Shown: piece after piece, positions 16,427-61,528 of the stretch
How the letters are laid out: each line of letters starts with the position of its first letter
How positions within the stretch are numbered: the first letter of the stretch is position 1
Notes under the pieces: model-generated
What the model saw: the letters and a program-made list of their open reading frames with translations, nothing else
Told to the model about the DNA's origin: nothing
Databases searched by the model: none
Translations under genes and position numbers: made by a program
Source: a virus
IMG/VR virus record: IMGVR_UViG_3300019458_000024
Coordinates: 1-64,000 of that record
DNA length: 64,000 bases
Direction: 5' to 3' (one strand)

Positions 16427-16443
16427 AATGGAAAGGATAAGTT

Positions 16444-16785
16444 ATGTATAATTGGGTATTTTAGACATATGAAGGAGTTCAATATTACGTTACAAGCAAT
16501 GAAGAACTATATGACGACGCTTGCGAAGATCTTAGAATCTATACTGGACTAGCACCTGAACAATTTGTAGAGTTTAAAGGGCTGTTAAACCCAAACAAAT
16601 CTTATAAAGAACCAGCAAGTGTCTCCCATATAGGAGATGTTTTAAATAGAAGTACCAAAGCACTCATATTAGATGTCGATTTAGCTGATTTTCCAGAGGA
16701 ATTTTGGGTACATAACCCAGACCTTACTGGTTTAGAAAATGTTCCCGACTATTACTGGAAAGTTGAAGATGACACTCTTTCGGAA
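16444..16785 (+). pseudogene. N-terminal part of DUF4376-like gene, interrupted by TAG
   Basis: An ATG at 16444 has a good Shine-Dalgarno (AAGGA, six-base spacing). Its frame reads MYNWVF, then TAG at 16462-16464, then continues open (TYEGVQYYVTSNEE...) straight into the next entry without another stop. There is no ATG, GTG or TTG in this frame between the TAG and 16786. A second Shine-Dalgarno-like GAAGGAG occurs at 16471-16477 but is followed by no standard start. Either an amber mutation, an assembly error, readthrough, or a noncanonical start. Confidence 0.6.
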
Positions 16786-18482: not shown

Positions 18483-19532
18483 TTGGAATACCTATTTGTT
18501 AAAAATCTTCTTTTAGAACTTTTAAAACTCCTCTCATTACGTAATTGGGAAACCAAATTTACGCACAATGATGTAAAAGAAATTCTAAAATGTGAAGAAC
18601 CTACATGTGGTCTTGTTGTATCCTTAGGTGTGGAAAAAGGGTACTTTGAATTACAATTTCAAGACTACGTAATAACAAAAAATGGTAAGAGTGTAGGCGC
18701 TCAAATGAGCATGTGTATGACACCTTTACCTACATGTAAAAGTGACGTAAGTGTTGAAAAAGACTCAAAAGATTTTTTGGGTCCTACCCTCAAAGCGACA
18801 GCTTTCTCAATTTCTAGTGTTCTAAACAATGATCTCAAGGATCAAATAGATCTTAGAGATCTAGGTATTTCTACAATTACTAGTAATACGGTGTCGCGTG
18901 CGCGTGCGCGCGTGAACGTAAATAACCTTAAAATAGCTAAAAAAGAAGAAGAAGTGAAATCCATTCTCTCAGGAGAGACTGCATCAGGAGATGATGAAAC
19001 TGCGAAGTGTTGGTTAATGGCAAAAGTTTATGAACAACAACTTCGTGAGTATAGAAACAAACCGTATATGGTGTTCTTTAAGAAATCTGAGTTGTCCCGT
19101 CAGACAAAAACAGTGCTTAAACGAGCCTGTGCCTTTGCAGATGAACTTGGTGTAGATTTCACGACATATGTTCGAGCGCAGTTTTGGTGGTTTGATACCA
19201 ACTTCTCACAGGCTCCTGAACTTCATTACCTTGCCTCCAGTAGGTCCAAGTTCAATGCCAAGGAGCGCGTGAAGGTATTCTTGCAGGAAGCCTCTACAAC
19301 GCAGCTAATGAAGCCTGTGAGGAGCAGAGAGATGGTTCCTCCAAAATGGAATAACTCAGCTAAATTTGATCAGTGTGATGTGGTGTTGAAGCGTATGATG
19401 ACTAACTATAAACTAACCGAAGAAGAAGTGTTTAAAGCTTTTAAGGGGCACAGTATTGATTTGTTCTTTGATTCTGCGTGGTTAAAGCAGAATGAAACAT
19501 ATAAACGACTTAGAGCAGCGGGCGAGGTTTAA
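18483..19532 (+). CDS. Hypothetical protein upstream of RNR
   Basis: 349 residues from TTG 18483, supported by GAGGAG nine bases upstream. No recognised domain. Residues about 150-180 (RARARVNVNNLKIAKKEEEVKSIL) look like a basic then coiled-coil linker, and the C-terminal half is helical. A GC-only alternating purine-pyrimidine stretch at 18896-18914 encodes the RARAR part and differs from the AT-rich surroundings. It ends just before the nrdJ start, so the two probably form an operon. Confidence 0.6.
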   Translation: MEYLFVKNLLLELLKLLSLRNWETKFTHNDVKEILKCEEPTCGLVVSLGVEKGYFELQFQDYVITKNGKSVGAQMSMCMTPLPTCKSDVSVEKDSKDFLGPTLKATAFSISSVLNNDLKDQIDLRDLGISTITSNTVSRARARVNVNNLKIAKKEEEVKSILSGETASGDDETAKCWLMAKVYEQQLREYRNKPYMVFFKKSELSRQTKTVLKRACAFADELGVDFTTYVRAQFWWFDTNFSQAPELHYLASSRSKFNAKERVKVFLQEASTTQLMKPVRSREMVPPKWNNSAKFDQCDVVLKRMMTNYKLTEEEVFKAFKGHSIDLFFDSAWLKQNETYKRLRAAGEV

Positions 19533-19536
19533 ATCT

Positions 19537-22500
19537 ATGTCAGATAATAAGTCGGGCGGTCTATTCGCGTCCGGTGTGGATTACGTTCGTGAAGGTTCGG
19601 CTGTTTATGTAGGTGAGCCTTCTCCATTGTCTGATGATTTTGTTCCTAGCGGAGAGAATCCTAAACTAAAGATTAATGAAAACTTTACTTTAGGACAATC
19701 TGACCCATTCAAAAGTGTTGAATGGGAATTTCGAGACGTAGTTCTCACCAACCCACAGACAGGGGAAGAGGTTTTTAGTGGAAAGAATCTGGAATTTCCC
19801 AAAACTTGGTCACAGAACGCGGCCACGATTGTAGCTGAAAAGTATTTCAGATTCGTTCTGCAGGATGACGGTACGAAGGTTAAAGAGATATCTGTAAAGC
19901 AGATGATTTCAAGGGTCGCTAGTACTATTGCACGTTGGGGGCAAATTGGCGGCTACCTCAGTGAGATTGGCGCTCGAAAGTTTTATAATGAATTGTCTTA
20001 TATTCTTGTGAACCAAATAGCTGCGTTCAACAGTCCGGTTTGGTTCAATATTGGAACTAATAAAGGGCTGCCTCAAACAGAAGCAGCTTCAGCATGTTTT
20101 ATTGTTTCTTTGCAAGATACTATGGAATCGATTCTTGAGCTGGCTAAGACTGAAGGTACTCTTTACAAAGGCGGATCAGGCTCTGGGGTGAATTACTCAA
20201 ATCTTAGATCATCTCGTGAGAAATTGAGTGTTGGAGGAACTTCCTCTGGTCCTGTTCCTTTTATGTTGAAAGATGATTTCAATGCAGGTGCTGTGCGCAG
20301 TGGAGGTACGTGCCTAGCTCCCTACCAGAGGGTATATACCGCTGAAGGGCCCGTGGCTGTAGAAGAACTTGCTAAACTGGAAAGCTTTATTGTTTTGAGT
20401 TTTGATCCTCCTGCAGGTCGTTACAAAGCCAAGAAGGCGCGTGCGTGGAAAGCTGGTAGAAAGAATGTAGTTAAGATTGTTACTGATAAGGGTGAATTTC
20501 ACGTAACTGATGACCATCCTATTAAACTGTCGTCAGCAAACTTTGTGAAAGCGGGCGACCTAACACCAGGTTTGTCTTTATTTGCTTGTTGTATTGACGA
20601 CCGGGCCGGTTATGTTCGTGTTAATTTGCGAAATGGTCGAAAAGGTAAGGAGTTTTTCCATAGATTGATAGCTTCCGATGTTGGTGGGTATGATATAGAC
20701 AATCTTGTTGTGCATCACAAGGACCACAACAAAATCAACAACGCACTTTCAAATCTTGAGGTGATGACACAATCTTCGCACGCCTTTCAACACAATAAAG
20801 AACTAGTAGATGTGGGAGACCATGTATTCCAGCGTAGATCATTTCCAAAGGCTGGTCGTGCAAATGGTATGCACAGCAGTTCTGCGTTCTGGGACTCTCC
20901 GGAAAAATTAACTGCCTATCGATCACGTTTAGCCGCTGCTATTAAGCCTCACGCACGAGAAATGCAAAAAGCAGCTGGTCAACAACGCATGATGAACACC
21001 GCGTATACACTACTTAATGCTGGGTGTGCAATTGATACATTTGAGCAATATGTGGTGAGTAGAAAGCAGATTTTAGGACGTATTAGTAGTGTTTCCAAAT
21101 TAAGGAAAATGCTTAACCATAGATTTGATAATTACGATAATTTTCTCAAAGAAGTAAATGCTAACAATCACCGTGTAATCAGTGTTGTTCGTGTAGGAGA
21201 GATGGACGTTTATGACGTTGAGGTTGAGTGCCCCACGCTAGATGACAAAAGCCCAATGACCGGGCACAATTTCGTTATCTGGTGTGACGATTCCAATTTT
21301 GGCTCTGGTGTTGTTGTAGCAAACACACGCAGAGCGGCAAAAATGACAATTCTAAATATAGACCATGGAGATATTTTAGAATTCATTCAATGCAAAGCTA
21401 AAGGGGAGGAAGTAGCACATGCTCTGATTGATTCCGGTAAATTTTCTGGAGACTTCAGAGACCGCTGGGGTGCTTATGCTATTGCTCCATTTCAAAACGC
21501 CAATCACTCAGTACGTGTGACTGATGAATTCATGAAGGCTGTTGAGAATGACGATACTTGGAATCTACTAGCCAGGGACGGCACTGCGTTGCAGATTGTT
21601 AAAGCACGCACTCTGTGGGATGAGATTTGTAAGGCTGCTTGGTTTTGCGGTGATCCTGGTTTGCAGTTTGATACTACAATTAATAAATGGCACACCAGTC
21701 CAGCTAGTGGACGAATTAGCGGATCAAACCCGTGTTGTCTGACTGGTGATACGCTAGTTGAGACTTCTGAGGGGCGGATTCGAATTGATAAGCTGGTTGA
21801 TATGTATAATGCGGGTGAGAAACTACCGCAAGCATTTGCTTGGGATGAGTCTGCAAACCTTCCCGTGCTGCGTCCCATAACCAAGGCGTGGAAAGCTGGG
21901 GACACTACTTCGCTTGTTATTGTCACAACCGACAAGGGCGCGACAATCAAGTGTACACCCGAACACAAGTTTTTGTTGCGTAACGGTTCGTGGGTTCAAG
22001 CTTGTGATTTGAATCCTGGAATGCGGCTACGTAAAATAGGACGTTGGGCCAATGAACAGCGGTCTGATCGTTGGCACATCAATCACAAAACAACCATGTC
22101 CGCCCCAAATGGAACTTCTATCCAAGCCCGATGGATGTGGGAACAAGCTAACGGACCAATACCTCCGGGCTATGCCATCCATCATTTAAACGGTGACCCC
22201 ACTGATGATCGACTTTCAAATCTAGAGATGATAACGCGTTTTGAGCACGCAAGTGGCCACGCAAGCGGTGCTGAAAATTCTCGCTTCATGGAAGTGCGCC
22301 CAGAAGTGTTGGTAGAAATTTACGAGGAGATTGAAGCTACTCCAAAACGGACCCATAAAAATGGTATTGCGGTTACGCCGGCCCGATGGAATAGCTTCAT
22401 AAAGAGAAGAGGGCTTATTGGAAAGGTGCCAATGGCACAGAGTCCGTCCACAGGTGGACGTATACAAGGTATGGCTTGGAGCCAATTTGTTGAGTTCATT

Positions 22501-24243
22501 GAAGACCACCGTGGCGATGTTAATGACTGTGTAGTGTCTGTATCTAGAGACGACCGCACAGACTCTACATGTTGGGCTGTGTATGATTTAGAGATTGAAG
22601 GTGTTCATAATTTTTCCGTCGGTACGCAAGGCGTGGACCACGGGATTATTGTTCACAACTCAGAATACATGTTTCTGGATGATTCAAGCTGCAACTTAGC
22701 GTCGATCAACTTGCTCAAGTTTTTGCGTTCCGATGGGATGTTTGATGTTGATGGTTACCTTCACACGATTGACGTATTGATTACGGCAATGGAAATTCTT
22801 GTTGGATATGCAAAATATCCGACTAAGAAAATTGAGGAGAATAGCCACAATTTCCGCCCTCTAGGTCTGGGCTACACTAACCTCGGGGCTTTGCTGATGT
22901 CTCAAGGAATGGCTTACGACAGTGTTGAAGGTCGTACACAAGCGGCATTGTTAGCTTCAATCCTTACTGGTCGCGCGTATCGCCGTAGTGCTGAAATAGC
23001 CTCAGTAGTTGGTCCTTTCGAAGATTATGATGTCAATCGTGCTTCCATGTTGAATGTTATGAATATGCATCTCAATTCTATGAATGCAGTATCTGCCCGG
23101 ACGGACCAAGAGTCTTTGTTGGAAAATACTGCTAAAAACGCTTGGAAAGAGTGTATTTCTCTGGGCAACAAATATGGTTATAGAAATGCACAAGCAAGTG
23201 TGATGGCACCTACTGGAACTATTGCTTTTTTAATGGACTGCGACACCACTGGCATTGAACCTGATTTATCGTTAAATAAAACGAAAAAACTCGTTGGTGG
23301 TGGGACAATGAAGATTGTAAATAAACAAGTTGAACCAGCTTTGAAGGCTTTTCGCTATTCAGACTCTGATATTACAAGTATTTTGACCAAGATTAGGGAA
23401 ACCGGGTCCGCCGCTAATTCTCCTTTATTGGAGTGTCACCAAAATGTGTTTGCGACAAGTTTTCCAGATCCGGTGAGTGGTAGATTCATTAGACCTGAAG
23501 CGCATGTTCTCATGATGGCGGCTATCCAACCATTCGTCAGTGGCGCTCTATCCAAGACAGTCAATATGTCAAACACAGCTACTGTGGAAGACATTGGCAA
23601 AGTATATATGGAGGCTTGGAAGCTTGGCCTCAAAGCTATTGCTTTATACAGAGATGGCTGCAAGCGCACACAACCGTTGTCTGTTGAGAACGCTGTTGTA
23701 GAGTCTGAAACAGCGCCAGAACCTTTGCAAGTTCGTAGGAAATTACCCAACGACTGTGTAGCGCACAGGCACCATTTTAAAATCAGTCAACACGCAGGAT
23801 ATCTGCATATCGGGCTGTATCCAGATGGAAAACCTGGAGAACTTTTTATTCAAATGGCCAAAGAAGGTTCCACCGTGTCTGGTTTGATGGATGCAATTGG
23901 GGTTCTTACGTCTATTGCGCTGCAGTATGGAGTTCCTCTTGACGTATTGGTGGAAAAATTCTCTTACACTCAATTTGAGCCGGCCGGCATGACTAGTAAT
24001 GAGGATATAAAGTTCGCGCAAAGTCCTCTAGACTATATTTTCAGATTCCTTGGCTCTCAGTTTTCAGTTGAAGAAAATCCAACTGTTGAAGTAAAAGACT
24101 TGTCAAAAAGTGACGATACACGTATAAAAAGTGTGCTTAACGGCGCTTATGGTCAAGTATGTACTAATTGCGGCAATGGAATGCAGCGCGCCGGATCTTG
24201 CCTAACGTGTTCAACCTGTGGTAATACATCAGGATGTGGTTAA
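19537..24243 (+). CDS. nrdJ: Class II ribonucleotide reductase with two inteins
   Basis: Adenosylcobalamin-dependent ribonucleoside-diphosphate reductase: makes deoxynucleotides without a separate small subunit. The precursor has 1568 residues from ATG 19537; removing two inteins (residues 259-596 and 734-1041) leaves about 922 residues, normal for NrdJ. Extein landmarks: FNSPVWFNIG, SACFIVSLQDTMES, GGSGSGVNYS, NPC joined to SEYMFLDDSSCNLAS, APTGTIAFLMDCDTTGIEP, and a C-terminal zinc ribbon CTNCGN...CLTCSTCG. Both inteins sit in conserved substrate or active-site motifs, so splicing is required for activity. A longer frame from 19492 would overlap the previous gene by 41 bases and is less likely. 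Confidence 0.92.
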   Translation: MSDNKSGGLFASGVDYVREGSAVYVGEPSPLSDDFVPSGENPKLKINENFTLGQSDPFKSVEWEFRDVVLTNPQTGEEVFSGKNLEFPKTWSQNAATIVAEKYFRFVLQDDGTKVKEISVKQMISRVASTIARWGQIGGYLSEIGARKFYNELSYILVNQIAAFNSPVWFNIGTNKGLPQTEAASACFIVSLQDTMESILELAKTEGTLYKGGSGSGVNYSNLRSSREKLSVGGTSSGPVPFMLKDDFNAGAVRSGGTCLAPYQRVYTAEGPVAVEELAKLESFIVLSFDPPAGRYKAKKARAWKAGRKNVVKIVTDKGEFHVTDDHPIKLSSANFVKAGDLTPGLSLFACCIDDRAGYVRVNLRNGRKGKEFFHRLIASDVGGYDIDNLVVHHKDHNKINNALSNLEVMTQSSHAFQHNKELVDVGDHVFQRRSFPKAGRANGMHSSSAFWDSPEKLTAYRSRLAAAIKPHAREMQKAAGQQRMMNTAYTLLNAGCAIDTFEQYVVSRKQILGRISSVSKLRKMLNHRFDNYDNFLKEVNANNHRVISVVRVGEMDVYDVEVECPTLDDKSPMTGHNFVIWCDDSNFGSGVVVANTRRAAKMTILNIDHGDILEFIQCKAKGEEVAHALIDSGKFSGDFRDRWGAYAIAPFQNANHSVRVTDEFMKAVENDDTWNLLARDGTALQIVKARTLWDEICKAAWFCGDPGLQFDTTINKWHTSPASGRISGSNPCCLTGDTLVETSEGRIRIDKLVDMYNAGEKLPQAFAWDESANLPVLRPITKAWKAGDTTSLVIVTTDKGATIKCTPEHKFLLRNGSWVQACDLNPGMRLRKIGRWANEQRSDRWHINHKTTMSAPNGTSIQARWMWEQANGPIPPGYAIHHLNGDPTDDRLSNLEMITRFEHASGHASGAENSRFMEVRPEVLVEIYEEIEATPKRTHKNGIAVTPARWNSFIKRRGLIGKVPMAQSPSTGGRIQGMAWSQFVEFIEDHRGDVNDCVVSVSRDDRTDSTCWAVYDLEIEGVHNFSVGTQGVDHGIIVHNSEYMFLDDSSCNLASINLLKFLRSDGMFDVDGYLHTIDVLITAMEILVGYAKYPTKKIEENSHNFRPLGLGYTNLGALLMSQGMAYDSVEGRTQAALLASILTGRAYRRSAEIASVVGPFEDYDVNRASMLNVMNMHLNSMNAVSARTDQESLLENTAKNAWKECISLGNKYGYRNAQASVMAPTGTIAFLMDCDTTGIEPDLSLNKTKKLVGGGTMKIVNKQVEPALKAFRYSDSDITSILTKIRETGSAANSPLLECHQNVFATSFPDPVSGRFIRPEAHVLMMAAIQPFVSGALSKTVNMSNTATVEDIGKVYMEAWKLGLKAIALYRDGCKRTQPLSVENAVVESETAPEPLQVRRKLPNDCVAHRHHFKISQHAGYLHIGLYPDGKPGELFIQMAKEGSTVSGLMDAIGVLTSIALQYGVPLDVLVEKFSYTQFEPAGMTSNEDIKFAQSPLDYIFRFLGSQFSVEENPTVEVKDLSKSDDTRIKSVLNGAYGQVCTNCGNGMQRAGSCLTCSTCGNTSGCG
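20311..21324 (+). mobile_element. Intein 1 in NrdJ, with HNH endonuclease motif
   Basis: 338 residues from Cys (TGC at 20311, CLAPYQRVYT) to Asn (AAC at 21322-21324, GVVVAN), followed by Thr as the +1 residue of the extein (TRRAAKM). Block B is VTDDHPIKL. The penultimate residue is Ala instead of the usual His. A central HNH-type motif VVHHKDHNKINNALSNLEVM (around 20707-20766) indicates a homing endonuclease. The insertion site is the GGT/TRRAAKM motif of RNR. Confidence 0.88.
21736..22659 (+). mobile_element. Intein 2 in NrdJ, with HNH endonuclease motif
   Basis: 308 residues from Cys (TGT at 21736, CLTGDTLVETSEG) to Asn (AAC at 22657-22659, GIIVHN) with Ser +1 (SEYMFLD). It is canonical: block B TPEHKFLL, block F VYDLEIEGVHNFSV, penultimate His. 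The HNH motif AIHHLNGDPTDDRLSNLEM lies near 22174-22230. It interrupts the NPC/SEYMF motif. Being in the same gene as intein 1 but with different sequence, it is an independent insertion. Confidence 0.9.
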
Positions 24244-31509: not shown

Positions 31510-32010
31510 ATGCGCGCGTTACAATTGACAGATAAGCAGTTCGGTCGATGGTTGGTCGTAGCACGCGGTGATAATTCGTTACAAGGCAAAACACAGTGGT
31601 TATGCCAATGTGTTTGTGGAGAGTTTTCACTTGTATTGGGAACAAGCTTGACTAGAGGGTTTTCTCAATCTTGTGGTTGTTTGTCAATTGAAAAGACTTC
31701 GAAAAGAAATGCTACTCATGGTGCTACTAAATCAAATAAAGACAAAAGTATTTATAATATTTGGTGTACTATGAAAGCTCGTTGTAGTAATCCCAATAGT
31801 CATAAATATAAATCCTATGGAGGTCGAGGCATAAGGGTCTGTGACCGTTGGCGAGATTCTTTTGAGAATTTTTTAAACGATATGGGTGAACGTCCTGGTA
31901 AAGGATATTCAATAGATCGTATTGACAATGATGGAAATTATGAACCCGGAAACTGCCATTGGGCCACCGCAAAAGAGCAAAGATTGAATCAAAGAAAAGT
32001 TGGAGTGTGA
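31510..32010 (+). CDS. AP2/HNH-type homing endonuclease
   Basis: 166 residues immediately after recA. An N-terminal Cys-rich domain (LTDKQFGRWLVV...WLCQCVCGEF...SCGCL) precedes the signature SYGGRGIRVCDRW...FLNDMGERPGKGYSIDRIDNDGNYEPGNCHW, typical of free-standing phage endonucleases of the AP2/HNH type. It shares both parts with the gene at 34737. Probably a selfish element inserted between recA and the cupin gene. Confidence 0.78.
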   Translation: MRALQLTDKQFGRWLVVARGDNSLQGKTQWLCQCVCGEFSLVLGTSLTRGFSQSCGCLSIEKTSKRNATHGATKSNKDKSIYNIWCTMKARCSNPNSHKYKSYGGRGIRVCDRWRDSFENFLNDMGERPGKGYSIDRIDNDGNYEPGNCHWATAKEQRLNQRKVGV

Positions 32011-33646: not shown

Positions 33647-34740
33647 GAATAGTTCTCTTCAGTGACTTGCATTGTCATCCATTTCAGCCTTACGCGACTA
33701 TATTAGCTAATGGTATGAATTCAAGGTTGGCTGATGCTATTAGTTGCATAGACCAGATAGTGGCGTACTGTGCTGATCCAAATAATCACGTAGATTTGGT
33801 TTTATTCGGCGGTGATTTGTTCCATGTTCGCAAGAACATTTCTGTAGCTGCGTTCAATGAAGTGTACGCTGCTCTGTCACAATTTGCTGCGAACGACATT
33901 CCACTGGTTTTGATACACGGTAATCATGATCAAGCCAGTAAGGACGGCAGTGTTAATAGTATAAAGACGTTTCACAGTATGGCTCACGTTATTGAACGTC
34001 CAGGATGGTTGGAATTACGAGGTCGGTGGGGAGACCCATATTCCATTCTCGGCGTTCCATACACGGAAAACATTGAACACCTAAAAGATATTGTAAACAT
34101 TCCTAACCCAGAGCCACTAGCTCCTAGCATATTGCTAGCTCATTTAGGTGTGCAAGGCGCTAAGGTAGGGGCTGATTTTGTGTATGCCACTCCGTACGAC
34201 GCCAAAGTAGAAGACCTGAACTGTGGAGCGTTTGACCGTGTTTATCTTGGTCATTATCACATGCACCAACAACTGGCGTCGAATGCTTGGTACATCGGAG
34301 CGCCACTGCAACACAACTGGGGTGACAAACATCAGTGGAGAGGTTTTTTGGTATATAATACTGACACCAAGAGTCATGAGAAAGTTGATTTGAAGTCACC
34401 AAAGTTTGTTGAAATTGATAATACCTCATTAAATATGGATACCTCACTGTATAGTGATGATTTCGTAAAAATTGTAGATTCTTCTACCGACAGTTGGTCA
34501 AAAACACGTATTGAGGAAGAAAGGATTAGGTTAGGCGCTAGATCACTAGAAATAGTGGTGAGGGAGAAAAACAGTGCACCTTTTGTCCCTAGATTAGATA
34601 TTTCAACTAACACATCCTTTAAAGACGCCATGGAAAAATATGTTAGGTCTGGTTTGTCTTCCGTTGAAGGGTTGGACGAGTCATATTTGTTGCAAATTGG
34701 AAATGAGATCTTGGAAGAAGTAGAAAATGGAGAAAAATGA
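33643..34740 (+). CDS. sbcD: SbcD/Mre11-like nuclease subunit
   Basis: 365 residues from TTG 33643, chosen because MRIVLFSDLHCH is the usual beginning (a GTG at 33634 is possible). Metallophosphoesterase motifs: SDLHCHP, FGGDLFH, IHGNHDQ, LLAHLG, YLGHYHMHQQ. This is the nuclease partner of SbcC, whose gene follows after two mobile-element-bearing genes (34737-37914); normally the two subunits are adjacent. It opens and trims DNA ends and hairpins. Confidence 0.85.
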   Translation: MRIVLFSDLHCHPFQPYATILANGMNSRLADAISCIDQIVAYCADPNNHVDLVLFGGDLFHVRKNISVAAFNEVYAALSQFAANDIPLVLIHGNHDQASKDGSVNSIKTFHSMAHVIERPGWLELRGRWGDPYSILGVPYTENIEHLKDIVNIPNPEPLAPSILLAHLGVQGAKVGADFVYATPYDAKVEDLNCGAFDRVYLGHYHMHQQLASNAWYIGAPLQHNWGDKHQWRGFLVYNTDTKSHEKVDLKSPKFVEIDNTSLNMDTSLYSDDFVKIVDSSTDSWSKTRIEEERIRLGARSLEIVVREKNSAPFVPRLDISTNTSFKDAMEKYVRSGLSSVEGLDESYLLQIGNEILEEVENGEK

Positions 34741-35726
34741 TGGGCATCCGATTAAATTTGGAGAATCAAAAATTTGGATATCTTACTGTACTGCGTGATG
34801 CAGGGAGAGCTTCTTCTGGCGCCGTCAAGTGGATGTGTCAATGTGATTGTGGCAAGAAAAAAGTCGTCGCCTCTGATTCTTTGAGAAGCGGAAGAGTATA
34901 CCATTGTGGCTGTCAGGGCCGACGTGCTTTGCATGATTTAGAGTTAATTGGAAAACAGTTTGGAAGACTGACGGTACGTTCGAAACAGGGTTACGAAAAG
35001 AAAAGCCAAGCGCTCTGGAACTGTGTTTGTAGTTGTGGTAAAGAGGTAGTCGTGCGTGGAGGAAATCTAGTTTCCAGTAACACGCGTAGTTGTGGTTGTG
35101 CTATAGCATTCAAACACGGAATGAGTCGTACGTCTGAGTATATGATCTGGTCTGGTATCAAAGCTCGCTGCTTTAATAAAAATAATTCGGCATATTCCTA
35201 TTATGGCGGTCGTGGAATTACGATGCACGATCCTTGGATAAATGATTTCATGAAATTTTTTGAATATGTTGGAAAACGTCCTGGGCCTGAGTATTCTATA
35301 GATAGAATTAACTCAGACGGTAATTATGCACCAGGAAATGTTAGATGGGTGACAGACGGTGAGCAAATGATTAATAGAAAAGCCAGGGGAACGACATTTA
35401 ATTACTATCAAAATAATACGAAAAAGACGGCTATTTATCCAAAAGAAGACCCGTTCGTTGCTATAGTTTATTGTGCGCTAGGTTTGTCCTCGGAAGCAGG
35501 TGAGATCGCGAGCAAGATAAAAAAATGCATGAGGGATAATGAGGGGATAATAGATCGAGAAGTCAAAAATTCGTTGATTGGTGAGATTGGTGATTGTTTT
35601 TGGTATTTAAGTGAATTGTCATCCAACTTGGGAGTGTCCTTAGACTACGCCGCTAAGAAAAATTTGAGCAAGTTGATGGGAAGAAAAGAGCGCGGTACAT
35701 TGAAAGGTAGCGGCGATAATCGTTAG
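34737..35726 (+). CDS. Homing endonuclease-like / MazG fusion
   Basis: 329 residues. Residues 1-105 hold two copies of a Cys-rich domain (KFGYLTVL...CQCDCG...HCGC and QFGRLTV...CVCSCG...SCGC); residues about 145-200 hold the endonuclease signature YYGGRGITM...YSIDRINSDGNYAPGNVRW shared with the gene at 31510. From residue 219 the protein becomes a MazG-type nucleotide pyrophosphohydrolase: TTFNYYQNNTKKTAIYP, GLSSEAGEIASKIKK, LIGEIGDCFWYLSEL. At the joint there is ACG (35391) directly after AGGGGA, with no ATG, so MazG can apparently be made only as part of the fusion. Confidence 0.75.
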   Translation: MMGIRLNLENQKFGYLTVLRDAGRASSGAVKWMCQCDCGKKKVVASDSLRSGRVYHCGCQGRRALHDLELIGKQFGRLTVRSKQGYEKKSQALWNCVCSCGKEVVVRGGNLVSSNTRSCGCAIAFKHGMSRTSEYMIWSGIKARCFNKNNSAYSYYGGRGITMHDPWINDFMKFFEYVGKRPGPEYSIDRINSDGNYAPGNVRWVTDGEQMINRKARGTTFNYYQNNTKKTAIYPKEDPFVAIVYCALGLSSEAGEIASKIKKCMRDNEGIIDREVKNSLIGEIGDCFWYLSELSSNLGVSLDYAAKKNLSKLMGRKERGTLKGSGDNR

Positions 35727-35751: not shown

Positions 35752-37914
35752 GTGTCTTGGCAGGTTATTAAAAGTGACTGTTTATCAGCATTAAAAACGT
35801 TTAATGATGAGTCTGTTCATTCTATTATTACTGATCCTCCATACGGACTAGGCTCTGAGCCTACTCCTGAACAATTAATTGCGTTTATCAGCGGGGATGA
35901 CGTTCGACTCAATGATAAAGATTTCATGGGCAAGGATTGGTCAATTCCTTCTGTGGCTGTTTGGAAGGAATGCTTTCGCGTATTGAAGCCAGGGGGACAT
36001 TTGCTAGTATTCGGTGGAAGTCGCACGTTTGATCTCATGTCTCTTGGTATTCGTACGGCTGGATTTGAATACCGAGACACGGTTATGTGGATCTATGGTT
36101 GTTTGTCAGAAGACACAGAAATACTTGTAGATGGAGAATGGGTACCTTACTTCAAAGCAGTAAAAGGTAGGCACGCACTTTGTTATGATAGAGAATCTAA
36201 TAGTTATTCGTGGGAAAAAATCAACAATTTGTACGTGTATGAATACAACGATATCGCGTACAAAATTACGTCAGATAGTACAGACCAACTCGTCACCAAA
36301 AACCATCGCTGCTTGGTTGAACAAAACGGAAACTTTGAATTCAAAGAAGCGTGGGAAGCTGCACTGGACGCAGAAACACGCGTACCCGTTTTGGAAGGTT
36401 TGTCAGAATTGCTTAACTGTATTCCCCTGCCGGACAAACGAGCAGGCTTTGAGGAAAAGGGCGTGCTCGACACTATGTGCGGGCCGCTTAATTTCAAAAG
36501 CAAGGAAAGGGAAATACAGAACCCTAGTAAGAGTTTGTGTAATTTGCAAGAAATCCTACCGTGCGTACATCAGCAAGAAACGAGCCTCGAACAGAAAATT
36601 CTGCAGCAACAGGTGCAGAATAATCTGGAGGAAAAAGAATCCACACTTATGGGATCACCTTTACAAGGTGGGGCATCTGGGCAGAAGCGGATGGACAGCG
36701 GAATCAATGGCGTCTTACAAATTAAAAATGAGTGGCAGCAAAAACCCTGCATGGAAGGGAGGGATTACGAAGTTGAAAGCCAGAGGCAATTACAAGAATG
36801 TTGTTTTGGTTCGGTGTCCGCCGGAGTTTCACAAGATGGCTCAACAGAACGGGTATGTATTGGAGCACAGGTTAATAGTAGCAAAACAGATCAAAAGAGT
36901 ATTGACACAAAAAGAAGTTGTTCACCACATGGATCACAATCCGCAAAACAATGCAGCTACGAATTTAGCATTGTTCAAGACAAACAAAGATCACAAACTG
37001 TTCGAGCATCATGGAAGACCGCTGCCTCTCTGGCAAGGTTCGAAGAAATAGAATACTCAGGCATTGTTTGGTGCATATCAGTTCCTACGGGTGCTTTTGT
37101 AGCAAGACGAAATGGTAAGATATTTGTTACAGGTAATTCAGGATTCAATAAGGGAGGAGATATCTCGAAAAAGATTGATAAATCCCTCGGTGTAGAACCT
37201 ACAGTTATCGGAGAAAATCCTAATCACAGGCCGCTGTCCGGCGTTAGTTATGAAGGAATTTATGCTGGTGGCAATACTGGAAGCAAGTATGTTACTGCGG
37301 CTACTAGTGATGAGGCAAAGGTGTGGGAAGGTTGGGGCGTATCGATTAAGCCAGCTCACGAGCCGATAGTCATGGCAAGAAAACCATTCAAGGGAGCATT
37401 ATTTAAAAATGTGTTGAAGCACGGCACCGGTGCAGTGAACATTGATGCCTGTAGAATTCCAACAGAAGACAAACTGACAAGAAAACTGGGAAAAACGACA
37501 GAATCAGATGCCGGCTGGAAATCCGTCAATCGATCAGAAATTGCAGGAAAAGATGGTGGTAGAGTGCCTGCAAATGTAATCCTTGACGAAGAGGTTGGAG
37601 AGATTTTAGACTCTCAAGAATCTAAATCTAAGCCTGCCCGTTTTTTTTACTGCGCCAAAGCTTCAAAGTCTGAAAAGAATGAGGCTGGGCCTAATAATCA
37701 TCCAACAGTGAAGCCGGTAGATTTGATGCAGTGGCTGGTTAGACTAGTTACTCCTCCTGGTGGTGTGATATTGGATCCGTACGCAGGTAGTGGCACTACT
37801 GGGGTAGCTGCGGTTTCCGAAGGTTTTTCCTTTATAGGAATAGAAAAGTGCCAAGAGTATGTTGACATTGCAAGACAGCGAATTGAGCATATTGAATTCG
37901 AGAATCGCGAATAG
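35752..37914 (+). CDS. Beta-class DNA methyltransferase with intein
   Basis: 720-residue precursor from GTG 35752 with GGGGG upstream. Methyltransferase parts: ITDPPYGLG (catalytic motif IV) first and LDPYAGSGTTGVAA (SAM motif I) near the C-terminus, the order of beta-class N4/N6 enzymes. An intein at residues 117-462 splits the motif WIYG/SGFNKGGDISKKIDK; after splicing the enzyme has about 374 residues. The intein region also contains a long second reading frame with an HNH endonuclease (see 36185). The spliced enzyme probably protects phage DNA. Confidence 0.85.
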   Translation: MSWQVIKSDCLSALKTFNDESVHSIITDPPYGLGSEPTPEQLIAFISGDDVRLNDKDFMGKDWSIPSVAVWKECFRVLKPGGHLLVFGGSRTFDLMSLGIRTAGFEYRDTVMWIYGCLSEDTEILVDGEWVPYFKAVKGRHALCYDRESNSYSWEKINNLYVYEYNDIAYKITSDSTDQLVTKNHRCLVEQNGNFEFKEAWEAALDAETRVPVLEGLSELLNCIPLPDKRAGFEEKGVLDTMCGPLNFKSKEREIQNPSKSLCNLQEILPCVHQQETSLEQKILQQQVQNNLEEKESTLMGSPLQGGASGQKRMDSGINGVLQIKNEWQQKPCMEGRDYEVESQRQLQECCFGSVSAGVSQDGSTERVCIGAQVNSSKTDQKSIDTKRSCSPHGSQSAKQCSYEFSIVQDKQRSQTVRASWKTAASLARFEEIEYSGIVWCISVPTGAFVARRNGKIFVTGNSGFNKGGDISKKIDKSLGVEPTVIGENPNHRPLSGVSYEGIYAGGNTGSKYVTAATSDEAKVWEGWGVSIKPAHEPIVMARKPFKGALFKNVLKHGTGAVNIDACRIPTEDKLTRKLGKTTESDAGWKSVNRSEIAGKDGGRVPANVILDEEVGEILDSQESKSKPARFFYCAKASKSEKNEAGPNNHPTVKPVDLMQWLVRLVTPPGGVILDPYAGSGTTGVAAVSEGFSFIGIEKCQEYVDIARQRIEHIEFENRE
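36100..37137 (+). mobile_element. Intein in methyltransferase, endonuclease out of frame
   Basis: 346 residues from Cys (TGT at 36100, CLSEDTEILVDGEW) to Asn (AAT 37135-37137, IFVTGN) with Ser +1. The splicing N-domain runs to about residue 212 of the precursor and contains block B-like VTKNHRCLV; the C-domain starts near EYSGIVWCISVPTGAFV. The roughly 220 residues in between, where an intein endonuclease normally lies, are Gln/Ser-rich and resemble no domain in this frame, while the +1 frame of the same DNA encodes a clear zinc-finger/HNH endonuclease. Confidence 0.82.
36185..37051 (+). CDS. HNH endonuclease in +1 frame inside intein
   Basis: The open frame runs 36185-37051; the convincing part begins near 36395. 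It has two zinc fingers of matching spacing (C73-x2-C76...C94-x3-C98 and C118-x2-C121...C140-x3-C144), the motif GSKNPAWKGG, and an HNH core YVLEHRLIVAK...EVVHHMDHNPQNNAATN...KDH. The first 65 residues are only a shadow of the intein. There is no ATG or obvious ribosome-binding site next to the real start of homology, so expression would need an internal non-ATG start, a +1 frameshift, or the region has suffered two compensating frameshifts. Stop is TAG at 37049. Confidence 0.72.
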   Translation: MIENLIVIRGKKSTICTCMNTTISRTKLRQIVQTNSSPKTIAAWLNKTETLNSKKRGKLHWTQKHAYPFWKVCQNCLTVFPCRTNEQALRKRACSTLCAGRLISKARKGKYRTLVRVCVICKKSYRAYISKKRASNRKFCSNRCRIIWRKKNPHLWDHLYKVGHLGRSGWTAESMASYKLKMSGSKNPAWKGGITKLKARGNYKNVVLVRCPPEFHKMAQQNGYVLEHRLIVAKQIKRVLTQKEVVHHMDHNPQNNAATNLALFKTNKDHKLFEHHGRPLPLWQGSKK

Positions 37915-37917
37915 CAA

Positions 37918-39837
37918 ATGAGATTCCTTTCGGTAGAAATTCAAAATTTCATGTCGTATGGAGAGCCAGCACAGACTCTCCGTTTGGAAGACTTGGGTTT
38001 GGTATCTATTGTAGGTATTAACAAGGACGCGTTGGGTGCTTGTTCAAATGGTTCCGGAAAGTCTTCTATCATGGAAGCGATTGTATGGACATTGTATGGA
38101 CAGACAATGCGTGGTTACAAGGGGGACGAAGTAGTCAATAGAACAAACAAGGAGAACTGTTTTGTTAGACTGGCCTTGGAAGAAAATAACTCACTATATG
38201 AAATCAAGAGAACCAGAAAAGTTAATCAAAAACGTTCTAATGATTTGTGCTTGTTTATAGACGGTGTAGATGCTTCGCAAGGAACCGTAGCAGACACACA
38301 AGCAACTATTCAAACTATCATTGGTATGGATTTTTGTACATTTACGCAAAGTGTGATGATGTGGCACGGTACGCAACCCTTCAGTAAAATGACAGATAAA
38401 GAGCAAAAAGAGGTCCTGGAAGACATACTTCAAATAGACCAGCTCGCTAAGGCCAAAGATATTGTTAAGAATAAAATTTCTAAGGGACAAGAAAGTCTAA
38501 AAAATCTGACAAATAGAGTGTTGTTTTTAGACGCGACAATAGAAGATCTTTCCTTGTCTATTTCCAAACTGTCTTCACAAGACTCTCAATACGCTGAAAC
38601 AATCAAACAAAGACGTATTGCGCTGTTAACTAAAAAAGTAGATACGGAACTAAAAATAAATGAATTATATAAAAACACCGGGCTCGACAAACTAATTAAA
38701 ATTAGAGAAAATATAAGTAGTAAATTAGAGGTTATAGGCAATAGCCGAAGACATGTACAAACTGAAAAGCTTATTGTTGCCCGTTCGTTTGCTGAAAAAA
38801 AAGCTGCCTTATCAAAAAGAGAAGGCGTGGTCCAAGGAAGGATCATACAACTCCAAGAGGATATCAAAGCATTTAACACCCTCGCTGGGAAAGTATGTCC
38901 AACGTGCAAGCAAGAGTTCCACGTTGAGACAGCTTCATCCTGCATGGACATCTGGGCTAAAGAAGCCGAACGGCTACGATCACAAGAGATTGGCCCCATC
39001 GTCAACGCGCAAGAGGCTCTCCACGGAGACGAGCAATCTGAACTCAGTGCATTGGCGATTGAAGAAAGCCGTATCAATCAGGAAATTGGAACGGCCCAAG
39101 CCGAGCTGCAAAGCGCGGATGATAACGTCCGTAAAAGGAAGGCCACGCTTCAAGTTGTCTGTGAGTTGGAGCACCAGGCTCTTGGAATCCAAAAAGAACT
39201 CAACCAGCTTGACGAAGAGAAAAATCCGTATTCCGGCCTCATTGAGGAGAGTAGGAAAAAGCGAGACGACTGCGAAGGAGAGCGAAGATCCCTTACCTGC
39301 AAGATTGATTCTCTTTCTTTTGAATTAAGCCACCTAGAATACTGGAATCACGGTTTTGGTAATAGCGGATTAAAGTCTTACATACTCGATAATGTAGTTC
39401 CTTTTCTTACAGAAAAAGCGCAAGAATATGCTGATATAGTATCTGGAGGGGATATCAGGTTGGAGTTTTCTACGCAAACAAAGCTGAAATCTGGAGAGAT
39501 GAAGGACAGCTTTCAAGTCAAGGCTGTTAATCTAAAAGGCGCAGATGTTTATCACGGAAATTCTGATGGAGAACGCAGACGTATAGATATTGCCGTTGGT
39601 TGGGCTTTGGCAGACCTAGCAGCGACAAGAGCTAAAAAACCTATATATTTTAGAGGTTTAGATGAGCCTTTTGAACACTTAGATACTGTTGGCGAAGATT
39701 TGGTAATAAAATTACTTCACAAAGTTTTGCCAAGGTATGAAACTGTAATGTGTGTCACACATAGTGCACACCTAAGAGATCAATTTCCGAAGGAGGTTGT
39801 GGTAACATTTAAGAATGGATTTTCGAAAATTTCGTAG
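37918..39837 (+). CDS. sbcC: SbcC/Rad50-like SMC ATPase
   Basis: 639 residues. N-terminal FMSYGEP...SNGSGKSSIMEAIVWTLYG (Walker A, near residue 44), long coiled coil with a zinc hook KVCPTCKQEF, ABC signature-like SDGERRRIDIAVGWALADLA and Walker B YFRGLDEPFEHLD. It forms the SbcCD complex with the gene at 33643. A long open frame in another phase (38753-39328) runs through the coiled coil but has no recognisable motif. The stop codon lies inside the 5' strand of the RNA structure that follows. Confidence 0.88.
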   Translation: MRFLSVEIQNFMSYGEPAQTLRLEDLGLVSIVGINKDALGACSNGSGKSSIMEAIVWTLYGQTMRGYKGDEVVNRTNKENCFVRLALEENNSLYEIKRTRKVNQKRSNDLCLFIDGVDASQGTVADTQATIQTIIGMDFCTFTQSVMMWHGTQPFSKMTDKEQKEVLEDILQIDQLAKAKDIVKNKISKGQESLKNLTNRVLFLDATIEDLSLSISKLSSQDSQYAETIKQRRIALLTKKVDTELKINELYKNTGLDKLIKIRENISSKLEVIGNSRRHVQTEKLIVARSFAEKKAALSKREGVVQGRIIQLQEDIKAFNTLAGKVCPTCKQEFHVETASSCMDIWAKEAERLRSQEIGPIVNAQEALHGDEQSELSALAIEESRINQEIGTAQAELQSADDNVRKRKATLQVVCELEHQALGIQKELNQLDEEKNPYSGLIEESRKKRDDCEGERRSLTCKIDSLSFELSHLEYWNHGFGNSGLKSYILDNVVPFLTEKAQEYADIVSGGDIRLEFSTQTKLKSGEMKDSFQVKAVNLKGADVYHGNSDGERRRIDIAVGWALADLAATRAKKPIYFRGLDEPFEHLDTVGEDLVIKLLHKVLPRYETVMCVTHSAHLRDQFPKEVVVTFKNGFSKIS

Positions 39838-40004
39838 GGACTCCTGGGTAGGGCAGCACAGACATGATCTGATGTACTCTGTTTCCCCCTTCCGAGTTCC
39901 CAGATCAAGCGCCTGAGTCTGTGTAGTGGTAGGCAGTGATTAGTTAATACTAATCCGGCAGTTAAAAATGGCGCGCGAGACAACCTGGGAGTCCCTACCT
40001 TTTT
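39834..40004 (+). ncRNA. Candidate structured noncoding RNA
   Basis: The 183-base gap after sbcC folds compactly. Closing stem: GTAGGGACTCC (39834-39844) with GGAGTCCCTAC (39988-39998), extended by five more pairs including two G-T wobbles, and followed by a T-run (40000-40004). Inside: CACAGAC/GTCTGTG (39857-39863, 39917-39923), stacked on TGATCTG/CAGATCA (39865-39871, 39901-39907) and ACTC/GAGT (39876-39879, 39894-39897); a separate hairpin GATTAGT-TAAT-ACTAATC (39938-39955); and a possible pseudoknot GCGCC/GGCGC (39909-39913, 39970-39974). It matches no RNA class I recognise and is not a tRNA. Confidence 0.6.
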
Positions 40005-40020
40005 AAATGGGAATGTAATT

Positions 40021-40398
40021 ATGAATGAAAATGTAAAAGAAGTGCAAAGTAGGTTATTTGCGGGTGTTGATCCCGATACCCCTGTAGACCAGATTCCACA
40101 AACCGTAAAGGACAGGTTGTTTGCCATTGTTTGGCAATTATTTCAAAGCCATAGAGTTTGTGAGTTGTTAAAAAATAATATTACTATCGTGGATCGAATA
40201 GATCCTGACAGTAAGACTATTGAAACTCTGGTGGTGGAAAACCCTGTTTCCGTTGGTCCCCCTCTTACCAGTGGCCAAGTAGTAGAGTTGCAGACTTTGC
40301 TCAAGATAGCCGGCTGCAAAAGTCCTGACAAAATCTTTCAAAGCGTCATGAAGATATTTGGACAGGAAGGTCCTACTGTTCATTTGGGAGGCTCTTAA
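40021..40398 (+). CDS. Hypothetical protein after structured RNA
   Basis: 125 residues with no recognised domain. It begins 17 bases after the T-run of the RNA candidate, with GGGAATG-like sequence upstream. It is followed closely by the resolvase-like and RNase H genes, so it may act in recombination, but nothing in the sequence shows this. Confidence 0.6.
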   Translation: MNENVKEVQSRLFAGVDPDTPVDQIPQTVKDRLFAIVWQLFQSHRVCELLKNNITIVDRIDPDSKTIETLVVENPVSVGPPLTSGQVVELQTLLKIAGCKSPDKIFQSVMKIFGQEGPTVHLGGS

Positions 40399-49495: not shown

Positions 49496-50482
49496 ATGGC
49501 TGGATTTAGATGGTCCGAGACAGAGGATTCTGTTTTAATTACGCATTGGCGCAATTTTAAAAAGTCTGAATTAATGGAACTTTTGCCTGGTCGCACTTGG
49601 GCTGCTGTCTTACTTCACGCTGCCAAGTTAGGATTAACAAGAGATACAACATCCACGACTGTTAATACTCACAAGGCAAAGAGCTATATAGACGGGACAT
49701 CAAAGATCTCAGCGCTATTGGAAGAAACTCCAGAGGCTTATTACTGGGCGGGATTTATTGCAGCCGATGGTCATATTAGTAAAAGACGCAGATTGCGGAT
49801 TACATTGGCTCAAAAAGACGAAGCACATTTACAATTATTTTGTAAATTTATTAATGCTAATCCACCTAAAAAACGACTTTCAAATACAGGATATGGCCAG
49901 TGCTACATTTCTCTGCAGGACTTAGGCTTCCTTCCTTTTACGGAAAAATTTAACATAACGTCTAGAAAAACCTATGATTTGCGCACACCGAACATTCCTG
50001 ATGACTCCTTATTTTTATCATTTTTAGCCGGGTTTGTTGATGGGGATGGAGGTATACGAACGCTGGATGGTCGAAGCGATGTGAATTTGCATTTAGTGGG
50101 ACATGTTAATTCTCTTTCAGTGTTTATGGAATGGGCCGATCGGTTTAATTCACTTATTCCTTCTTCGCAAACTAATAGTAGGATTACTGCAGGAAGTGTG
50201 CCAAGAATTGATTCCAGCGGTTATGTTCGTTGGTGCATCTCGAATAATGAAACCATTCGTGCTTTTAAACGATCGTTGCTGTCATTAAATTTGCCATTAA
50301 TGGCTAGGAAATGGGATTTAGTTGACATTAATAAAAAATCTAAATACGTTTTATCTGATATACGAAAACAGTGGTATTTTGAACTTACAAAAGCTAATTT
50401 TTCACGAACCGAAATAGCAAAGGTTCTGGGGGTTGGTATGACTTATACGTATAGGTATACTGCTAATAGAGGCGAGATATGA
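49496..50482 (+). CDS. LAGLIDADG homing endonuclease
   Basis: 328 residues. Two LAGLIDADG-type helices: YYWAGFIAADGHIS (near residue 83) and FLAGFVDGDGGIRT (near residue 178). The N-terminus has a SANT/Myb-like helix-turn-helix (WSETEDSVLITHW...LPGRTWAAV) and the C-terminus another (SRTEIAKVLGVGMTYTYRY). Free-standing; its stop overlaps the phosphoesterase start (ATGA). Selfish element that may target the neighbouring gene of related phages. Confidence 0.85.
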   Translation: MAGFRWSETEDSVLITHWRNFKKSELMELLPGRTWAAVLLHAAKLGLTRDTTSTTVNTHKAKSYIDGTSKISALLEETPEAYYWAGFIAADGHISKRRRLRITLAQKDEAHLQLFCKFINANPPKKRLSNTGYGQCYISLQDLGFLPFTEKFNITSRKTYDLRTPNIPDDSLFLSFLAGFVDGDGGIRTLDGRSDVNLHLVGHVNSLSVFMEWADRFNSLIPSSQTNSRITAGSVPRIDSSGYVRWCISNNETIRAFKRSLLSLNLPLMARKWDLVDINKKSKYVLSDIRKQWYFELTKANFSRTEIAKVLGVGMTYTYRYTANRGEI

Positions 50483-61295: not shown

Positions 61296-61345
61296 AAATG
61301 GTGAAACCTCCTACACTTACTTACAGGATACCTTCATACGGCGAA

Positions 61346-61367
61346 AATGTGGCAAAAAATCCACATT
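61346..61367. promoter_or_regulatory. Inverted repeat in divergent intergenic region
   Basis: AATGTGG (61346-61352) and CCACATT (61361-61367) with an A-rich loop in the 129-base region between the divergent protease and micro-peptide genes. Candidate operator or a short hairpin. Confidence 0.3.
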
Positions 61368-61401
61368 ATTGCAACTTGAGAATATTGCTTTGTAAAGTAT
61401 A

Positions 61402-61414
61402 TGTAGAATGACCT
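61402..61414 (+). promoter_or_regulatory. Repeated motif TGTAGAATGACCT, copy 4
   Basis: In the divergent gap, ending ten bases before ATG 61425; TAGAAT is 21 bases upstream of that ATG. This copy overlaps no gene. Confidence 0.6.
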
Positions 61415-61424
61415 ACTATTTAGT

Positions 61425-61523
61425 ATGACTAAAAAACTGCTCGCGCGGTTGAAAAATGCGATTAGGAAATTCATACGCAGAGAAATGAAGTGGGCGGCGT
61501 TTTCGAAGTGTAGAATGACCTAA
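61425..61523 (+). CDS. 32-residue cationic amphipathic peptide
   Basis: MTKKLLARLKNAIRKFIRRE followed by MKWAAFSKCRMT. The first 20 residues form a strongly cationic amphipathic helix. It follows motif copy 4 directly and its end overlaps motif copy 5. Membrane-active or nucleic-acid-binding peptide is possible; translation is not proven because no Shine-Dalgarno is present. Confidence 0.4.
   Translation: MTKKLLARLKNAIRKFIRREMKWAAFSKCRMT
61509..61521 (+). promoter_or_regulatory. Repeated motif TGTAGAATGACCT, copy 5
   Basis: Overlaps the end of the preceding micro-gene and ends seven bases before ATG 61529, with TAGAAT 18 bases upstream of the start. Confidence 0.6.
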
Positions 61524-61528
61524 TAAAT

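Follow-up and report, generated by a model that had tools for sequence, protein, structure and literature searches.

A stretch of 64,000 nucleotides (nt) from a virus (IMG/VR record IMGVR_UViG_3300019458_000024, positions 1 to 64,000, here called the window) contains a structured RNA of ~165 nt at 39834-39998 on the + strand, with TTTTT following it. The RNA occupies a 183-base gap between an sbcC-like gene, whose stop codon is at 39835-39837, and the next gene, which starts at 40021. The same fold is found at the same fixed place in five phages, counting the one in the window, and it matches no known RNA family. Judged from these comparisons, it is almost certain that this is a real, selected structured RNA of the + strand. 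Since the fold is conserved in five phages, has no match in Rfam and was found nowhere else, it counts as a new family among the structured RNAs that phages are known to carry, and one that belongs to a single phage lineage.

The helices that a first-pass annotation, made from the letters of the window, had placed in this gap are all present where it put them. There is a closing helix P1 of 16 pairs (14 Watson-Crick and two U-G, the outer 11 being unbroken Watson-Crick), an arm of P2, P3 and P4 with 7, 7 and 4 pairs, and a hairpin P5 of 7 pairs with a TAAT loop. The GC pseudoknot (39909-39913 with 39970-39974) and the T-run (40000-40004) proposed there can also be read in the sequence. From 5' to 3', the order is P1, the joining strand J1/2, P2, P3, a variable apical part, P3', a one-sided loop with the first pseudoknot strand, P2', the core GUGGYAGGCAGU and P5, followed by CGGC, the second pseudoknot strand, ACA(G), P1' and often a U-run. 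By way of the pseudoknot, the one-sided bulge of the P2-P3 arm is joined to the strand that follows hairpin P5. In the window the parts are:

39834-39849 (+): P1 5' strand, fully paired in all five homologues; the sbcC stop codon TAG (39835-39837) lies within it
39850-39856 (+): joining strand J1/2, AGGGCAG; UGAGGCUG-like in relatives, with 64% mean pairwise identity versus ~30% in P2
39857-39863 (+): P2 5' strand CACAGAC; 7-pair helix with covariation
39865-39871 (+): P3 5' strand TGATCTG; 7-pair helix
39876-39879 (+): P4 5' strand ACTC; 4-pair helix in the variable apical part, whose length varies among homologues
39894-39897 (+): P4 3' strand GAGT, pairing with ACTC
39901-39907 (+): P3 3' strand CAGATCA, pairing with TGATCTG
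39909-39913 (+): pseudoknot 5' strand GCGCC, in the one-sided loop that separates P3 from P2
39917-39923 (+): P2 3' strand GTCTGTG, pairing with CACAGAC
39926-39938 (+): conserved, mostly unpaired core GTGGTAGGCAGTG; the final base belongs to P5; identical in L054
39938-39944 (+): P5 5' strand GATTAGT; 7-pair hairpin with loop TAAT (UAAU) at 39945-39948
39949-39955 (+): P5 3' strand ACTAATC, then conserved CGGC at 39956-39959
39970-39974 (+): pseudoknot 3' strand GGCGC, pairing with GCGCC
39983-39998 (+): P1 3' strand ACCTGGGAGTCCCTAC, which closes P1
40000-40004 (+): T-run after P1, a possible 3' end; T10 in L053, TTTT in L054, CTTT in L055, absent in L069

Relatives were located by a scan of IMG/VR in which the large subunit of the terminase (TerL) was aligned. 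Scans with TerL, the RecA-like protein or the next gene as single proteins found no relative, and direct DNA similarity to the RNA was found neither among INPHARED phages nor in 84 related loci. What the alignment scan did find is an RNA of the same build, spelled with different letters, in the same slot after sbcC in four loci (L053, L054, L055 and L069), where TerL is 62-69% and sbcC 42-47% identical to the proteins of the window. The sbcC stop codon lies inside the 5' strand of P1 in all five cases, and P1 is paired at 16 of 16 positions in four homologues and at 13 of 13 in L053. P2, P3, P5 and the pseudoknot were found in each homologue, P3 of L069 being read by eye as GGGTGG/CCATCC. The pseudoknot pairs GCGCC with GGCGC in the window, ATGAG with CTCAT in L053, TTTGG with CCAAA in L054, TGGGA with TCCCA in L055 (where the fifth pair takes a base that also serves as the first of P2') and GCGA with TCGC in L069. 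The core stands out best in the window, L054 and L055; in L069 and L053 it has diverged. Within the three clear cases, conservation is 0.94 in the unpaired core versus 0.48 in the surrounding helices.

Compensatory changes are seen in P1, P2, P3, P5 and the pseudoknot across the four related phages, as the first-pass annotation had asked of homologues. All five sequences were misaligned by MAFFT, and a covariance model (R1) was therefore built from three homologues aligned with shortened apical loops and one N added in L055; the window was excluded so that it could serve as an independent test. In this alignment 94.5% of cells pair, and 22 of 43 pairs show a double-sided change; none of 500 shuffles matches this, and slid controls give one to three pairs. 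When the window is included, covariation is seen in 19 of 38 pairs. R1 recovers the element of the window at its exact ends (39834-39999), scoring 37.7 bits (E 4.7e-8 in a 10 kb search, filters off); the same element is missed by the default fast filters in a search of 507 kb. For the pseudoknot, each of the five RNAs has complementary loops of its own, and together they beat shuffles (combined P 0.0017); when strands were exchanged between RNAs, five pairs were reached in just one of 20 cross pairs. The helices hold 19 G-U pairs, and the two strands score 37.7 versus 5.0 bits, which argues for an RNA of the + strand rather than a DNA cruciform.

Folding calculations agree with this in part. 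The + strand has a folding energy of -63.1 kcal/mol (z -3.69), which none of 200 shuffles equals, and among 336 + strand segments across the 64 kb the RNA has the lowest energy and the second-lowest z; the minus strand folds less strongly (z -2.04). The predicted middle arm differs from the one first described: the single-sequence minimum free energy (MFE) structure recovers P1 and P5 and pairs the middle arm otherwise. The P2/P3/P4 arm lies 9.7 kcal/mol above the MFE, the pseudoknot being left out of the energy, and thermodynamics alone would thus not settle the fold; the homologues favour the P2/P3/P4 arm over the MFE arm. Elsewhere in the window, the strongest folding z of the sampled segments (~-5.3) belongs to 21234-21399 (+), within the coding region of a reductase with inteins, and the long gaps at 16427-16785 and 61296-61528 have some stretches with low z (~-2.9 to -4.1).

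What the RNA does is a separate question. In the account that we favour, it would be co-transcribed with sbcC, fold once the final ribosome has cleared the stop codon, and be released through cutting, through termination at P1 and the U-run, or both. The stand-alone RNA would then hold a protein or ribonucleoprotein (RNP) on its conserved unpaired core, candidate partners being the phage's own Ro60/TROVE protein or packaging and replication proteins. We give this whole statement, stand-alone mechanism included, about an even chance. The core is more conserved than the helices, as is expected of a binding core and not of a mere terminator. Since the gene that follows the RNA varies, it is unlikely that the RNA controls one specific gene there. 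In L055, the gene directly after the RNA is another, unassigned one, and in L069 it is a Tad2-like anti-Thoeris gene (385-621, E 7e-20), which sits before the usual next gene; cargo genes may be accommodated at this junction. Several observations weigh against a stand-alone RNA or thin the case for it. The distance from the end of P1 to the next ATG is 22-27 nt in all five phages, which fits a leader too; the U-run is weak in L055 and missing in L069; no promoter beyond chance was found near the RNA; and the homologues total five, from a single lineage. The R1 match in L053 is the best of its stretch yet weak (7.4 bits, E 0.42), so that membership of L053 rests on synteny and on helices read by hand.

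The main rival is a cis-acting leader or riboswitch-like element for an operon starting at the next gene, which the near-invariable spacing between P1 and the ATG keeps in play; we consider it possible but rather doubtful. Here, closing of the junction would form P1, and P1 with the U-run would terminate or delay transcription or tune the nearby ribosome-binding site. A T-run does follow P1 in four of the phages, if weakly in L055, and the junction, with its pseudoknot and conserved unpaired letters, resembles an aptamer. A leader is disfavoured in that the downstream gene is another one in L055 and L069, the latter lacks a U-run, ribosome-binding sites could be recognised in four relatives and fall outside the helices, and no alternative pairing partner of P1 was recognised. 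The conserved downstream gene and expression platform by which a riboswitch would be known were accordingly not found. A sixth relative, G004, keeps the same gene pair without the element.

It is also conceivable, but unlikely, that the RNA forms the 3' end of the sbcC message, as a sturdy hairpin at which transcription stops or which keeps 3' exonucleases from advancing. It begins at the sbcC stop codon every time, it can finish in a U-run, and no neighbour other than sbcC adjoins it in all five phages. Such an element needs neither a pseudoknot nor a conserved unpaired core, however, and a loop of 133 nt makes a poor intrinsic terminator.

In one special case of a stand-alone RNA, which we regard as a long shot, it would serve the phage's own Ro60/TROVE protein in the manner of a Y RNA. 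The search for TROVE was made after this idea had been formed, and a TROVE gene is present in both large RNA-bearing genomes. The 162,637-base virus record of which the window is a part (G000) has a divergent type at ~133 kb (L315, 820-2418; E 6e-7, or 3e-7 for the full-length open reading frame). The 171 kb relative (G002) has a full-length relative of animal Ro60 at ~15 kb (L314, 862-2487; E 1e-36; PDB 1yvp, E 4e-128). Y RNAs likewise close by pairing their 5' and 3' ends (PMC4726728), as this RNA does with its own, and a search for Hfq or ProQ as partner found neither. On the other hand, the RNA and the Ro gene are ~93 kb apart in G000 and ~26 kb in G002, unlike bacterial Y RNA genes, which lie beside rsr/Ro, and the Ro proteins of the two genomes belong to different subtypes. 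P1 is an unbroken helix of 16 pairs (13 in the fifth phage), without the bulges by which vertebrate Y RNAs bind Ro (PMC4726728), and a tRNA-like module such as that of YrlA was not seen. Rfam Y RNA models have no match in G000 and none beside the Ro genes. Among 20 TerL-related records in which no RNA was detected, two encode TROVE as well; many of the records compared are fragments. Ro60/TROVE as the partner is a lead only.

A mobile or DNA-level element, such as terminal inverted repeats, a cruciform, or a recombination or packaging signal, is very improbable. The ends are inverted repeats, the element is missing from the same junction in G004, and the window has several inteins and homing endonuclease-like genes. 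Yet the 162 kb and the 171 kb record each contain it once, it has the same location in all five phages, motif searches of IMG/VR gave no other matching copy, the internal helices and pseudoknot covary, and the G-U pairs favour RNA. A chance structure, for which only the absence of the P2/P3 arm from the single-sequence MFE speaks, has a negligible probability and is refuted by covariation that none of 500 shuffles equals and by the independent detection of the window's element with R1, so the earlier judgement that it is hard to explain by chance holds.

Some other classes were rejected as well. Retron non-coding RNA and TnpB guide RNA would go with a reverse transcriptase or TnpB gene, and there is none in G000 or G002. 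A pseudoknot for stop-codon readthrough is rejected since in the window, L055, L069 and L053 the frame of sbcC meets another stop no more than about ten codons on, and the frame of L054 ends soon too. The RNA had been described as no tRNA, and neither ARAGORN nor Rfam gives a tRNA or tmRNA match.

No second copy was found in the phage's own genome (162 kb), in the 171 kb relative or in 84 other loci (default filters). In G004, sbcC and the next gene are separated by only about a dozen bases, and the RNA is therefore absent from that junction. In a tree of sbcC the RNA bearers make up one group (84/86, branch not starred) with G004 outside, which is consistent with a single gain of the RNA. A 14-mer from the P1 arm matches 42 stretches of IMG/VR, in none of which the other arm is suitably spaced, and a scan of IMG/VR for the core motif gave 18 stretches, of which the real ones are just two homologues already known. 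The same motif matches at least 118 stretches of bacterial genomes, of which 80 were examined and none has a credible fold; a TerL scan of bacterial genomes gave no match. As far as searched, with 80 of at least 118 bacterial matches examined, the RNA bearers form one lineage. The claim that the RNA matches no known family is upheld by Rfam 15, in which nothing is above the gathering cutoff for the window and three homologues; the best weak matches are to animal long non-coding RNA, small nucleolar RNA and CRISPR-repeat models, all unrelated. No description of the core string or of the RNA was found in open-licence PMC literature.

The virus itself belongs to an uncultivated lineage, as the closest isolated phages match the TerL of the window at only ~24-31% identity. 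The window carries the phage genes for DNA polymerase A, a RecA-like protein, an sbcC-like protein, RNase H and terminase. Those around the RNA are:

37918-39837 (+): sbcC-like gene (PHROG 77, E 1e-104), directly upstream of the RNA in all bearers
40021-40398 (+): next gene, family unassigned; directly 3' of the RNA in the window, L053 and L054, with another gene intervening in L055 and L069
41792-43621 (+): TerL gene (PHROG 675), used for finding relatives

Just upstream of sbcC is a DNA methyltransferase gene with an apparent intein (35752-37914, +). Inside it, on the same strand and in a different frame, lies an HNH endonuclease-like open reading frame of 288 codons (36185-37051, +; Pfam HNH_3, E 8e-5, slightly below the curated cutoff), so that ~870 bases are open in two frames. 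A ribonucleotide reductase-like gene of 1583 codons (19492-24243, +) has two intein-like insertions, as read by eye from the translation. Homing-endonuclease-like genes are also found at 31510-32010, 34737-35726 and 49496-50482; one of these shares its open reading frame with a MazG domain and one is LAGLIDADG-like. In G002, 32 tRNA genes are clustered at L183 3270-12742, whereas a search of G000 yielded none.

Among known RNAs there are several partial likenesses. The phi29 packaging RNA is ~170 nt long, with its ends paired in a long helix and a junction with side arms. The RNA of the window is like it in size, paired ends and side arms, but phi29 is from another phage group and there is no sequence or Rfam similarity; the terminase of the window is of PHROG 675, a family that is not known to work with an RNA. 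Riboswitch aptamers likewise have a closing P1 and a multi-helix junction, with a pseudoknot and a conserved unpaired core, and lie near a gene start, but here the downstream gene and U-run are not conserved and no known aptamer matches. Bacterial and phage Y RNAs (YrlA and the Deinococcus Y RNA, with Ro60/Rsr) are likewise small and closed by their own ends; a passage in PMC12282133 cites Chen 2014 for phage-encoded ones. Compared to these, the present RNA is larger (150-190 nt), is pseudoknotted, lies away from the Ro gene, and has no visible tRNA-like module, vertebrate-type Ro-binding bulges or Rfam match. GOLLD and ROOL are phage-encoded structured RNAs as well, their function not being known (PMC12286853). 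Their length is several times greater and tRNA islands are often close by, whereas this RNA follows sbcC and has no Rfam match. That it is shorter than GOLLD had been pointed out from the start, and ~165 nt indeed compares to GOLLD members of often >800 nt (PMC12286853).

A more far-reaching reading, which we put forward tentatively and think rather improbable, is that this is a new class of pseudoknotted phage RNA machine of ~165 nt, a trans-acting part of a phage-encoded RNP unlike every known family, its partner possibly being the phage Ro60/TROVE or products of the packaging and recombination genes of the surrounding cluster. Comparatively proven folds are rare among structured phage RNAs. 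For this one there are an alignment, a covariance model that works, a pseudoknot, a relative that naturally lacks the RNA (G004) and a specific, testable candidate partner in Ro60/TROVE. Synteny together with covariation can validate such RNAs where sequence search fails, and the unannotated gaps of uncultivated phage genomes conceal RNA families that are missing from Rfam.
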